Assembly: GCF_009739515.1 (NCBI RefSeq)
Contig: NZ_CP046535.1
Span: 2,914,001-2,978,000, forward strand
DNA length: 64,000 nt
Source of the DNA: Sphingomonas profundi
GTDB taxonomy: Bacteria; Pseudomonadota; Alphaproteobacteria; Sphingomonadales; Sphingomonadaceae
Reading direction: 5' to 3'
Part shown: positions 57,885-62,031 of the stretch, piece after piece
Numbering within the stretch: position 1 is the stretch's first letter
Layout: each line of letters starts with the position of its first letter
The notes under the pieces: model-generated
What the model was told of the DNA's origin: nothing
Seen by the model: the letters and a program-made list of their open reading frames with translations, nothing else
The model's database searches: none
Made by a program: the position numbers and the translations under genes

Positions 57885-57949
57885 CCGGACGACGGCGGTA
57901 CTCGCGGCCGTCTCGGATCACATCATGCCGGGCCAGGCCTTTCGCGCCC

Positions 57950-59296
57950 TCAGAGGCGGACGCCGCGCTGGTTCAGGATCGCCAGCATCTCGTCGCGCAC
58001 CGCCGCCTGCACCGCGCCGCTCTGGTGGATGCCGTCCGGCAGGTGGCGCCACAGGCCGTGCTCGGCGACGATCGCGTCGACATCGACCACGCCGATCCCC
58101 TCCCCGGCGGCCAGACCGTCCAGCATCACGTTCCGTTCCTTCGCACGCACCGTGCTCAGCGTGCGGCCGAGCGGCGCGTCGAACGCGGCATAGTGCAGGA
58201 TGTCCTCGTGGATCTGCGCCGATATGCCGTTGCACATCAGCAGCGCCGCCCCGGTCCGCTCCCGCACCGTCCGCGCGAGCAGGCGCAGGTCGGCGGCGAT
58301 CTCTTCCGTGTCGCGCGCTTCCGCCACGAAGTCGCGTTCCAGCCAGGCGCGCGTCGCGGCGCCCACCTGCGCCAGCCGGAACGGGTGGCAGGCGATCGCA
58401 TAGCCCAGCCGCCGGTGGCGCAGGATGGGCGGCAGCTCGGCGGTGAGCGTCAGGGCGATGGCGGTGGCCGGGCCGGCGCGGCGCAGCCCCTGCCGGCCCA
58501 GCAGCAGATAGTCGTCGGTGATCGGCGTGCGCCGCAGCGCCGCCAGCAGCGCGCCCAGGAACAGCCAGTCACCGGCGGCGGGCGGGGGCGAGAGGGCGGC
58601 GAAGCCCGCCGCGGCATCGGCCTCGATCGCCAGCATGTCCCCCGGCGACCGCGCCAGCTGTTCCAGCAGGATGCGCACGGAGGGGACGAGCGGCTCGTCC
58701 TGCACCACCGCCACCTGCCCGCCGCCGCCACTCGCGGCGAACAGCTCCAGAAAACCGCCCCGCTCGCCGCGCAGCGCCCCGGTCAGCTCGCAGGTGCCGA
58801 GCGCGAGCAGGGTCGCGGTCTCGCCCCCGGCCCTGCCCTCCTCTTCTCCCCACCAGCCGCGCACGCGATCGTGCCAGCCGGTCAGCAGGCCGGATCGGTC
58901 CTCGGCCAGTTCCGTCATGCGCCGGCCGGCCAGCATCAGCAGGCGCGGCAGCGCCGCATCGCCGGGCAGCGGCCGGCCTTCGGGCTCGATGTGCGCGATC
59001 ACGAAATCGTCCGACCAGCGATAATTGCTGAGCCGATCGAGGAAGCCGCCCTGCGTCTCCGCCGCGTGGGCCACCCGCCCGCCGACGCGGGGCGCAAAGG
59101 CGACCTGGAAGTCGCGCGTCTCGCCGGTGAACGGCGTGCCGCCATCGGCATCGGCGGAGAGCCCGAGGGTGCAGTAGGCGATCGGCTCGCCGGCGCGGGC
59201 GACGTGGCCGTCGGGACACAACCACCGCAGCGCCGATCGGACGACCCGATACCCGGCCACCGTGATCGGCCCCAGCCGCAGCGCGATCCCGCTCAC
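57950..59296 (-). CDS. Unrecognised protein with possible SGNH-like C-terminus
   Basis: A 448-residue soluble protein. Residues about 10-100 (DGHVARAGEPIAYC, FAPRVGGRVAHAAETQG) look like a barrel-sandwich or lipoyl-like fold, and the C-terminus has HLPDGIHQSGAVQAAV, similar to the DxxH block of SGNH hydrolases, plus LLMCNGIS that could supply a block III asparagine. No clear GDS nucleophile motif is seen, so hydrolase activity is a hypothesis. GTG 59296 overlaps the stop of the partner gene. No family is recognised. Confidence 0.7.
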   Translation of the reverse strand: MSGIALRLGPITVAGYRVVRSALRWLCPDGHVARAGEPIAYCTLGLSADADGGTPFTGETRDFQVAFAPRVGGRVAHAAETQGGFLDRLSNYRWSDDFVIAHIEPEGRPLPGDAALPRLLMLAGRRMTELAEDRSGLLTGWHDRVRGWWGEEEGRAGGETATLLALGTCELTGALRGERGGFLELFAASGGGGQVAVVQDEPLVPSVRILLEQLARSPGDMLAIEADAAAGFAALSPPPAAGDWLFLGALLAALRRTPITDDYLLLGRQGLRRAGPATAIALTLTAELPPILRHRRLGYAIACHPFRLAQVGAATRAWLERDFVAEARDTEEIAADLRLLARTVRERTGAALLMCNGISAQIHEDILHYAAFDAPLGRTLSTVRAKERNVMLDGLAAGEGIGVVDVDAIVAEHGLWRHLPDGIHQSGAVQAAVRDEMLAILNQRGVRL

Positions 59297-59655
59297 CGCC
59301 CGCCCCAGCCCTCGGCGTGGAAGACGATGCTGGCGACCGTCACGCGGGCCAGGCGCGCGCGCGGATCGTCGGCCGTGTCGCCCGTGTCCGTCGCCAGCAT
59401 GGCCACGGCCACACCGGGCATCAGCGCATCCCCTTGCCCCACGTTCAGCCGGACGAGCCGACCGCGTTCGCGCAGGACGAGGCGATAGTGGGAGATCGGC
59501 GGACAGTCGTGCGCCGCGCCCGCGCTTAGATCGACGCTGAAGTCGAGCAGCTTCGATCCCGGCATCAGCACCGCTCCTGCCGTAGCGTGCAGCAATCGCA
59601 CGCGCGCCGCACCCGCCAAGGTCAGCGCCGGCGGCAGGGCGACGGTCAGCAGCAC
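59293..59655 (-). CDS. Unrecognised small partner protein
   Basis: The 120-residue product starts at GTG 59655. It has a hydrophobic start (LLTVALPPALTLAGAARV) and a beta-rich body (GAVLMPGSKLLDFSVDL, VRLNVGQGDALMPGVAVAML) reminiscent of lipoyl/biotinyl barrel-sandwich domains without a modifiable lysine in the usual place. It is translationally coupled to the larger gene (GTGA). Function is unknown. Confidence 0.6.
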   Translation of the reverse strand: MLLTVALPPALTLAGAARVRLLHATAGAVLMPGSKLLDFSVDLSAGAAHDCPPISHYRLVLRERGRLVRLNVGQGDALMPGVAVAMLATDTGDTADDPRARLARVTVASIVFHAEGWGGR

Positions 59656-59718
59656 GATAAGGCGGGCGGCGGCATGGCCCGATCAAGCACCGGACGCCGC
59701 CCGTTTGGCAAGTGCCGA

Positions 59719-60822
59719 TCAGGCGGGGAGCGTCTCCAGCGACTTCGGCTCGTGCATCGGGCAGCCGTTATGCTGGCCGCGGAAGCCGGACGACATCTCG
59801 TAGGCGGGCTTGCGCGCCCGCATAACCCCGCCGAGCGGCTGATGCGCGGCAAGCCCGTGCCACGGCGAGAAAGCTAGGCTGTCGTCCACCACCTTGGCGC
59901 GCGTCTCGCTCCACGCCGATTGCGGCTCCACCGTGATCCGCGCGACCGGGATGTACGGGCTCTCCTCCTCGTCCCACGGCACGGACGCGTCCTCGACCGG
60001 CATCTTGTCGAGATCGGTGCAGAGCTGCGCGCGCACCTCCCACTGGCCGCCCTCGGCGCCGAAGAATTCGTTCATCGCACCGCGCAATCCGTCCGGATCG
60101 CCGCCGATGTCCACGGTCTCGCCCGCCAGCGCCTTGAAGTTGGGCGAGAGCGGCACGACCGACAGCTTGGCGATATAGTCGCCGTACCGCAGCGGCGCCT
60201 GCGTGAAGTAGCTCTCGCCGGCCGGATGCGTCTGGGCCTGGCCGCCCATGCTCTTCAGCATCGCGCTCTCACCGCCGACAGCCTCCAAGGCGCTCTCAGC
60301 CGCGCGCAGGGTGGCGGAGAGCACCTTCTTCACGCCCTCGACCCGGTCGGTCGTCTTGGCGAGCATCTTGAGGTTGGCGAGGAACTTGGCCGGCGTCGGT
60401 GCCAGGAAGGCGGGGCCGATCGCCATGACGAAATCCTGCGTGGCGTCTCCCTCCGATCCGGGCAGCCGATCGCCATCCACGCCGATCACCTTCACCGCCA
60501 TGCCGCGCGGCAGGGAGACGCTGTCCGGCAGGATGTCGCCGGCGTTGGTCGAGATGCGGAGCACCGTCTGATAGGTGCCGGGCTCTGCGAACAGGCCCTG
60601 CGCCAGCACCGGGGGCAGGCCGCCGAGCACCTCGAACGTGCCTTCCAGCAGCGCGTGGCTCTTGGCGTGGACGCTGCGAACGGCGTGGCCGTAATCCTTG
60701 TAGGTCGTCTCGATGATGCCGTGCAGCGTATCGACCAGCTCCCGCGTGACCTCCGCCTCGTTCGGCTCGGGCTGTTCGACGGCGGGCGTGTAGCGGATCG
60801 GGGCAGTGGGCGCTTGAGTCAT
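59719..60822 (-). CDS. Catalase-like heme protein
   Basis: The 367-residue protein resembles small catalase-family proteins: AVRSVHAKSHALLEGTFEV carries the distal histidine, NAGDILPDSVSLPRGMAVKV the core, and FSPWHGLAAHQPLGGVMRAR with AYEMSSGFR a possible proximal tyrosine. It is shorter than classical catalases and lacks a signal peptide. Peroxidase or SrpA-like activity is plausible. GAAGGA lies 7-8 bases before ATG 60822. Confidence 0.82.
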   Translation of the reverse strand: MTQAPTAPIRYTPAVEQPEPNEAEVTRELVDTLHGIIETTYKDYGHAVRSVHAKSHALLEGTFEVLGGLPPVLAQGLFAEPGTYQTVLRISTNAGDILPDSVSLPRGMAVKVIGVDGDRLPGSEGDATQDFVMAIGPAFLAPTPAKFLANLKMLAKTTDRVEGVKKVLSATLRAAESALEAVGGESAMLKSMGGQAQTHPAGESYFTQAPLRYGDYIAKLSVVPLSPNFKALAGETVDIGGDPDGLRGAMNEFFGAEGGQWEVRAQLCTDLDKMPVEDASVPWDEEESPYIPVARITVEPQSAWSETRAKVVDDSLAFSPWHGLAAHQPLGGVMRARKPAYEMSSGFRGQHNGCPMHEPKSLETLPA

Positions 60823-60865
60823 CGAAAGTCCTTCGTGGTCAGGCATTTGGCCGCCACATAAACCG

Positions 60866-62031
60866 TCAGCCCGGCGCGGTGGTTCCCGGCAGCGCCCTAG
60901 CGACGGCAAGAAAGCGGTCCACGTCGCGCTCATCGTTGTTCAGGCCGGGGCACACGCGCAGCAGATCGTCGCGCGCGTGGACGACAACCTCCTCCGCGGC
61001 GAAGGCGGCCGCCCAGGCGGCGGCCTGTGGCGAGCGGAAGGCGAGGAACCGCGCGCGCGCCCCGGCGCCCGGCGGGTTCAGCAGGTCCGCCGCCGCCAGC
61101 GGCGTGCCCCCGATCCCGTCGAGCAGGCGCGCGTGCAGGGCGGCCACATGGGCGGAGATCGCCGTTGTCGTCAGCCGCTCGCCGGCCAGCATGTCGCGCA
61201 CCGCGACGAAGCGGTAGAGGCCGGAGGGATCGAAGGTGGATCCCATGAAGCGCCTCGCATCGGCCGGATAGCCTACCGTCCCCCGCTCGCTCGCATCGGC
61301 GAACCAGCCGGTCTCCTCGGGGCGCGGGCCGTAGCCGGGGGGCGCGTGCATCAGCCCGGCGCCCTCCCCTGCCATCGCATATTTGTAGCCGCCGGCGATG
61401 TAGAAGACGCGATCGGCCACGGCGGAGAGATCCGTCTCTATCGCCATGAAGCCGTGATAGCCGTCGATCGCCACCCACGGCCCTTCCGGCCGGGCGAGCG
61501 CGGCGAGATCGGCGATGCGATCGAACACCAGGCCGCTGCCGAACATGACCTGGCTGACATAGGCCAGATCGAAGCCGCCGGCCCGCGCCCGCGTGACGAA
61601 GCGATCGGCGAAGGTGGCGCGCGGCTCCATCGCCACCGCCTCCACGATCGCGCGGCCGCTCTCCGCCCAGCGCGCGGCCTGGCGGGCGAAGCTGGCGAAC
61701 TCCCCGTCGCTCGTCAGGATGCGGACCGGCCGCCGATCGATCGCGGAGACCAGGCGGAGCAGCAGTTCGTGCGCGTTGCCGGCGAACGCCACGGTCGCCG
61801 CATCGGGCAGGTTCAGCTCGGCCGCGACATGGGCCTGCGCGCCGGGCCGGATCTCGTCCAGCACCCGCGACCACTTGTCGCCGGCCAGCCGCGCCGCATC
61901 GCTCCACGCGGCGATCTGGCCGACGAAGCTCGCATCGGGCCATAGCGGGTGGCTGTGCGCCGCCAGATGCACGCGATCGGGTGCGGCCGCGATCGCGCGC
62001 TGGAACAGATGCCGATAGCCGCCGCCCGTGC

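Follow-up and report, generated by a model that had tools for sequence, protein, structure and literature searches.

An overlapping gene pair from Sphingomonas profundi, its conserved glycosyltransferase-associated cluster and a possible lipoyl-dependent acyl relay

Acyl groups bound to lipoyl are intermediates of central catabolism. The 2-oxoacid dehydrogenase complexes (PDH, OGDH and acetoin dehydrogenase) comprise E1, a lipoyl-bearing E2 and E3. Small single lipoyl domains also occur as free-standing proteins outside E2, as in GcvH and LbpA (PMC6067878). SGNH/GDSL hydrolases and O-acyltransferases (PF13472, PF19040), among them AlgX, PatB and OatA, are associated with carbohydrate modification (PMC9487903). 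The Burkholderia capsule protein WcbI, a putative polysaccharide acyltransferase with a reported novel fold, holds acetyl-CoA between Cys14 and His201 and seemingly needs a partner protein (PMC4104973). The parts of the locus described here are relatives of such known kinds, and their combination is, as far as we have tested, undescribed: searches of open-access full text with combinations of SGNH, lipoyl, transglutaminase-like (TGase-like), 2-oxoacid dehydrogenase and glycosyltransferase found no description of such a cluster.

The pair lies in a 64,000-nucleotide stretch of the S. profundi genome (the window; NZ_CP046535.1, positions 2,914,001 to 2,978,000). An original prediction made from the DNA letters had reported genes for 120- and 448-residue proteins, here P2small and P1big, that overlap at a GTGA junction, and both reading frames and the overlap are as it described (Table 1). 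The two genes are coding, as shown by high third-position GC in frame (0.92 for P2small and 0.86 for P1big) and by frames that are preserved in orthologues with 32-49% identity. The junction has a 4-bp overlap in the window and in 7 of the 11 other adjacent pairs, and this recurrence indicates that the coupling is more than chance. The remaining junctions comprise one 1-bp overlap, two gaps of 5-10 bp and one pair in which a start could not be placed.

Table 1 Positions in the window of the gene pair, its conserved motifs and the surrounding insert, with the second locus of the same genome
Feature	Position	Strand	Remarks
P2small gene, 120 aa, GTG start	59293..59655	-	ORF; lipoyl-domain-like, without lipoyl lysine
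P1big gene, 448 aa, GTG start	57950..59296	-	ORF; N-terminal domain ~1-115, conserved linker, SGNH-like C-terminus ~160-448
GTGA junction, P2small stop overlapping P1big start	59293..59296	-	ORF positions; overlap conserved
Cys51-Pro52-Pro53 of P2small	59497..59505	-	Invariant columns in 12 orthologues; also in L079
Gly167-Thr-Cys169, SGNH block I of P1big	58790..58798	-	G167 and C169 invariant in 12 orthologues; also in L079
Asp421-x-x-His424, SGNH block V of P1big	58025..58036	-	H424 invariant, D421 at least 90%
Four-gene insert	57885..62031	.	Between ScfR-type regulator gene and SpoT gene; ~4.1 kb
Presumed catalase-family-like gene in insert	59719-60933	-	
Aminotransferase V/kynureninase-like gene in insert	60866-61930	-	
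Rest of the system, L004	9871-14601 (G000:C1:3164000-3183999)		Second locus of the window genome, ~0.2 Mb from pair

Both proteins had been read as barrel-sandwich-like from short strings that are indeed present, ALMPGVAVAML in P2small and ARAGEPIAYC in P1big. This reading holds for P2small. Its profile, of 12 rows, aligns with lipK, a lysine-bearing lipoyl protein encoded in the cluster described below, along the full lipoyl domain (hhalign 97.3%, E 2e-11), and also matches a solved pyruvate dehydrogenase E2 lipoyl domain in the PDB (E 1.2e-6). Judged by these profiles, P2small is a lipoyl-domain relative that has lost the attachment lysine, the lysine hairpin being replaced by a longer stretch with an invariant Cys-Pro-Pro. 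It resembles GcvH and LbpA (PMC6067878) in being a small, single lipoyl-type domain whose gene is separate from that of E2, and differs from them in the missing lysine; lipK in turn is linked to E1 and glycosyltransferases rather than to glycine-cleavage or Hdr genes. The reading does not extend to the N-terminus of P1big, for which alignments to lipoyl-type domains gave hhalign probabilities of 0.3-13% (12.6% over 19 columns with lipK, 0.3% with P2small) and a PDB search gave no match.

The C-terminus of P1big, as judged by profile comparison, is SGNH-like, in keeping with the original prediction. Lipase_GDSL_2 (PF13472) matches residues 327-430 of the window protein at E 0.015 and 16.2 bits, against a cut-off of 32.9, and 7 of the 12 P1big orthologues at E up to 0.1 (best E 1.3e-6). 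The C-terminal half aligns with a paralogue family from the same cluster, SGNHA (hhalign 99.3%, E 1.6e-20), all 11 members of which are matched by Lipase_GDSL_2 (best E 1e-7). The predicted terminal DxxH block is found as PDGIHQSG at the C-terminus. In block I the invariant Cys169, in the motif G-x-C-[ED], stands where the GDSL serine is expected, and the block III Asn (GxND) is not conserved in the orthologue alignment, LSLxxEP being found in its place. P1big thus resembles SGNH/GDSL enzymes in its C-terminal DxxH and its association with carbohydrate modification, and departs from them in scoring below the Pfam cut-off, in the Cys for Ser of block I, in the loss of the block III Asn and in having an extra N-terminal domain and a lipoyl-like partner. 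Like WcbI, it is a putative acyltransferase in which a Cys and a His may hold the acyl group and for which a partner is presumed. However, WcbI binds CoA and has no known lipoyl-like partner; no sequence relation between the two is shown here, and WcbI is not among the Pfam matches of P1big, even with E allowed up to 1.

Pfam and NCBIfam give P2small no family name and P1big none beyond the sub-threshold Lipase_GDSL_2 match; that the pair belongs to no recognised family therefore agrees with these curated libraries, in which no match to a characterised family was found. Isolated Pfam matches of P2small to PKS_DH_N and UPF0261, which are not common to the orthologues, were discarded, as were matches of P1big to an arginine repressor and an organic hydroperoxide resistance protein, which are isolated and absent in the orthologues. 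PDB sequence searches with the single P2small and P1big sequences yielded nothing, and AlphaFold2 models from two-row alignments are unusable, with pLDDT values of 40 and 36 (the latter for P1big).

P1big has no match among 200 genomes sampled from its family, 400 sampled from its order and its 2 congeners. None turned up in an initial scan of GTDB contigs either, and the viral and phage collections likewise yielded none. The window genome carries a 266-residue paralogue of the P1big C-terminus at 3.176 Mb (31% identity, E 1e-8), which in turn pointed to a single relative among the collected contigs, in a Novosphingobium MAG (locus L008). This locus has genes for SGNHA, E1-alpha and E1-beta, for a lipoyl protein and the glycosyltransferase GT2a, and for an orthologue of P2small (33%, E 3e-21); the same MAG also encodes P1big as a full-length orthologue (42%, E 1e-91), next to a homologue of a further SGNH-like protein, SGNHB. 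Within that genus P1big is present in 12 of 196 genomes. Of the 13 genomes in which both P2small and P1big could be placed, 12 (the window genome and 11 others) have the two genes side by side, so the pair recurs in other genomes; the exception is a fragmented Novosphingobium MAG with the two genes on different contigs. The cluster is sporadic in the genus searched, and these searches sampled only part of the diversity. A weak match in genome G754 was set aside as a classical GDSL protein of another family in a sialic-acid-type cluster, and plasmid relatives of E1 and lipK were set aside as members of catabolic operons.

In most genomes that have the pair it lies inside a cluster of 8-10 genes, which is conserved in some alphaproteobacteria. 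A survey of the gene neighbourhoods of the homologues, as the original prediction had proposed, finds this cluster recurrently around the pair: the two-gene unit that it described is real and conserved, and is only part of a larger set. Cluster members are a TGase-like protein, P2small, P1big, lipK, SGNHA, SGNHB, one or two family-2 glycosyltransferases and, in some cases, E1-alpha and E1-beta. We regard membership of the pair in this conserved cluster as almost certain. Five long loci contain the E1 set (L056, L057, L058, L061 and L065), in the order TGase, P2small and P1big facing lipK, E1b, E1a, SGNHB, GT2a and SGNHA, with the positions of GT2a and TGase varying among some of them. Clusters of a second type (L060, L062, L064 and the window genome) have the glycosyltransferase GT2b and no E1. 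All ten genes are present in a genome of another alphaproteobacterial family (G1311, loci L079/L080). In L058 the cluster adjoins Wzx- (flippase), Wzy- and Wzz-type genes and glycosyltransferases including GT4.

The sequences of the other cluster members retain several functional motifs. The lipoylation motif ET(H/N)KA, with the attachment lysine, is kept in 12 of 12 lipK proteins. lipK matches solved E2 lipoyl domains at E 9e-20, and the window-genome copy matches Biotin_lipoyl of Pfam above its cut-off (E 4e-9). E1a and E1b match E1_dh (E 9e-59) and transketolase domains, E1a retains the thiamine diphosphate motif GDG...NN, and GT2a retains a DGD motif. With its E1-alpha and E1-beta and a lysine-bearing lipoyl domain in an operon-like array, the cluster resembles the 2-oxoacid dehydrogenase complexes. 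Unlike in those complexes, the lipoyl domain stands alone, E1 is sometimes missing and the neighbours are glycosyltransferases and SGNH-like proteins; moreover, no conserved cluster member matches an E2 catalytic domain or an E3 domain, which leaves the acyl-accepting enzyme unaccounted for. SGNHA and SGNHB have no Ser or Cys at block I, and in several of them the His of block V is missing; hydrolytic activity is therefore improbable for both. In SGNHA of the E1-less Novosphingobium-group loci (L060, L062 and L064) the block-V His is replaced by Thr in DP[VA]TL, and other SGNHA proteins keep DxxHL.

In the window genome the system is divided between two loci. The second (L004) has the gene order lipK, SGNHB, GT2a, SGNHA, GT2b and TGase-like, with no E1, and the E1-alpha-like genes of this genome lie near no part of the system. 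Trees of P1big, P2small, lipK, SGNHA, GT2a and TGase agree in their groups, those of P1big, lipK and GT2a placing the window-genome copies in the E1-less group (support 84/89, 97/94 and 96/96). From the concordance of these trees, the pair and the distant locus look like one split system whose parts have travelled together. The pair itself sits in an insert that is absent from both congeners (L081 and L082), where the ScfR-type regulator and SpoT genes are only 6-23 bp apart. Its immediate neighbours are not glycan genes; one of them, which has no Pfam match, we take to be catalase-family-like. Less than 30 kb from L004 are ABC transporter-like and HlyD-type genes with the look of type I secretion (L020 37-1991; G000:C1:3145000-3163999), for which we claim no link to the system.

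The original prediction had proposed a glycan- or acyl-modifying role, and the conserved neighbours of the pair are indeed glycosyltransferases and an acyl-forming module. We propose that P2small and P1big are two subunits of a conserved acyl-relay system associated with glycans, a reading to which we give a probability of roughly 0.42. In the chemistry that we tentatively put forward, E1 would decarboxylate a 2-oxoacid and acylate lipoyl-lipK, P1big (Cys169, His424) would take the acyl group from the dihydrolipoyl thioester of lipK, and would then transfer it to an acceptor that the cluster glycosyltransferases help to make, either a sugar or a glycoconjugate. P1big would thereby fill the role that the CoA-acyltransferase domain of E2 has in a catabolic complex. 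We favour it as the missing transferase because it is the only one of the three SGNH-like paralogues in which all members retain both a nucleophile-like residue (Cys/Ser) in block I and the His of block V. P2small, whose translation is coupled to that of P1big, is its likely partner and may serve as a docking subunit or itself relay the acyl group via Cys51. A glycan is our guess for the acceptor because glycosyltransferases are conserved and because of the flippase/Wzy/Wzz/GT4 context of L058. WcbI and ABHD11, the latter a hydrolase-fold enzyme that acts on acyl-lipoyl (PMC12643935), offer published parallels to such a relay. Since the window genome and three other clusters lack E1, a housekeeping E1 would be needed there to load lipK.

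Several observations count against the acyl relay: the existence of E1-less clusters, the loss of the block-III oxyanion Asn in P1big, a TGase-like protein with no clear role and the absence of glycan genes beside the pair in the window. The broader idea, that acyl groups of surface glycans or glycoconjugates come straight from 2-oxoacids via lipoyl without passing through CoA or ACP, the transferase being a Cys-type SGNH protein together with a lysine-less lipoyl-fold partner, is possible and, in our judgement, somewhat doubtful.

In the aligned loci the TGase-like protein retains a Cys-His-Asp triad and is hard to fit into glycan acylation, and the cluster, found sporadically (12 of 196 genomes) and across families, is distributed like biosynthetic clusters. 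Both features would suit a cluster whose product is a small glycosylated molecule or a modified peptide: the TGase would make or break an amide bond, the glycosyltransferases would add sugars to the product, and the E1, lipoyl and SGNH proteins would supply or trim an acyl group. We consider this unlikely, given that the cluster flanks contain no recurrent precursor peptide, carrier protein, NRPS/PKS or dedicated exporter and that one cluster sits in a polysaccharide export locus.

The lack of a serine in SGNHA and SGNHB, of the block-V His in several of them and of the lysine in P2small could instead mean that these proteins and P1big form a non-catalytic scaffold for E1 and lipK, with lipoyl carrying redox equivalents or sulfur rather than acyl groups. 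A free-standing lipoate-binding protein with a non-acyl role has a precedent in LbpA of the Hdr-like sulfur pathway (PMC6067878). This too seems improbable, as the Cys and His of P1big are invariant, E1-alpha and E1-beta, where present, are acyl-forming, and no sulfur-metabolism gene recurs in the flanks.

SGNH proteins are mostly hydrolases, and a hydrolase-fold enzyme acting on acyl-lipoyl is on record in mitochondrial ABHD11, which strips glutaryl groups from lipoyl (PMC12643935). P1big might by analogy be a thioesterase that frees lipK of incorrect or stalled acyl groups; we rate this as quite improbable, because it leaves the glycosyltransferases, the TGase-like protein and two extra SGNH-like proteins unexplained. 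That the pair is a functionless remnant, stray or in decay, as its separation from the cluster in the window genome and its absence from congeners might suggest, is very hard to reconcile with intact frames, active-site-like residues and an overlap kept at 32-49% identity.

Should the cluster couple a lipoyl module to glycosyltransferases, as the acyl-relay reading holds, lipoyl could donate acyl groups to surface or secondary structures, and the cluster may represent a new way to attach acyl groups to a cell-surface glycan. If true, this would provide first functions for Cys-variant and degenerate SGNH proteins and for a lysine-less lipoyl fold. The gene set is small and testable, and its two natural versions, with and without E1, offer a means of working out the acyl group and its destination.

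Related arrangements occur on plasmids. On Agrobacterium plasmid pAt15955 (L028 6524-10007) an E1-alpha/beta fusion, a stand-alone lipoyl protein and an alpha/beta hydrolase are encoded in a row with lipA near, placing E1, lipoyl and hydrolase-fold proteins side by side as in the cluster. In contrast to the cluster, this unit has an alpha/beta hydrolase instead of an SGNH protein, a sugar-transport and catabolic setting, and no glycosyltransferase or TGase-like gene; it is possibly a parallel E1-lipoyl-hydrolase unit. On a plasmid of the cyanobacterium Planktothrix, an SGNHA homologue (99.7%, E 2e-26) directly precedes a lipoyl-like protein (94.6%) with glycosyltransferase genes near, and the pairing of SGNH and lipoyl proteins is therefore not confined to the proteobacterial group. 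In this locus (plasmid p3, L009 8128-11718) SGNHA is fused to a methyltransferase and the lipoyl-like protein is without the ETDKA motif; the locus also encodes a TPR protein with another SGNH-like N-terminus, and sulfotransferase and glycosyltransferase genes adjoin it.
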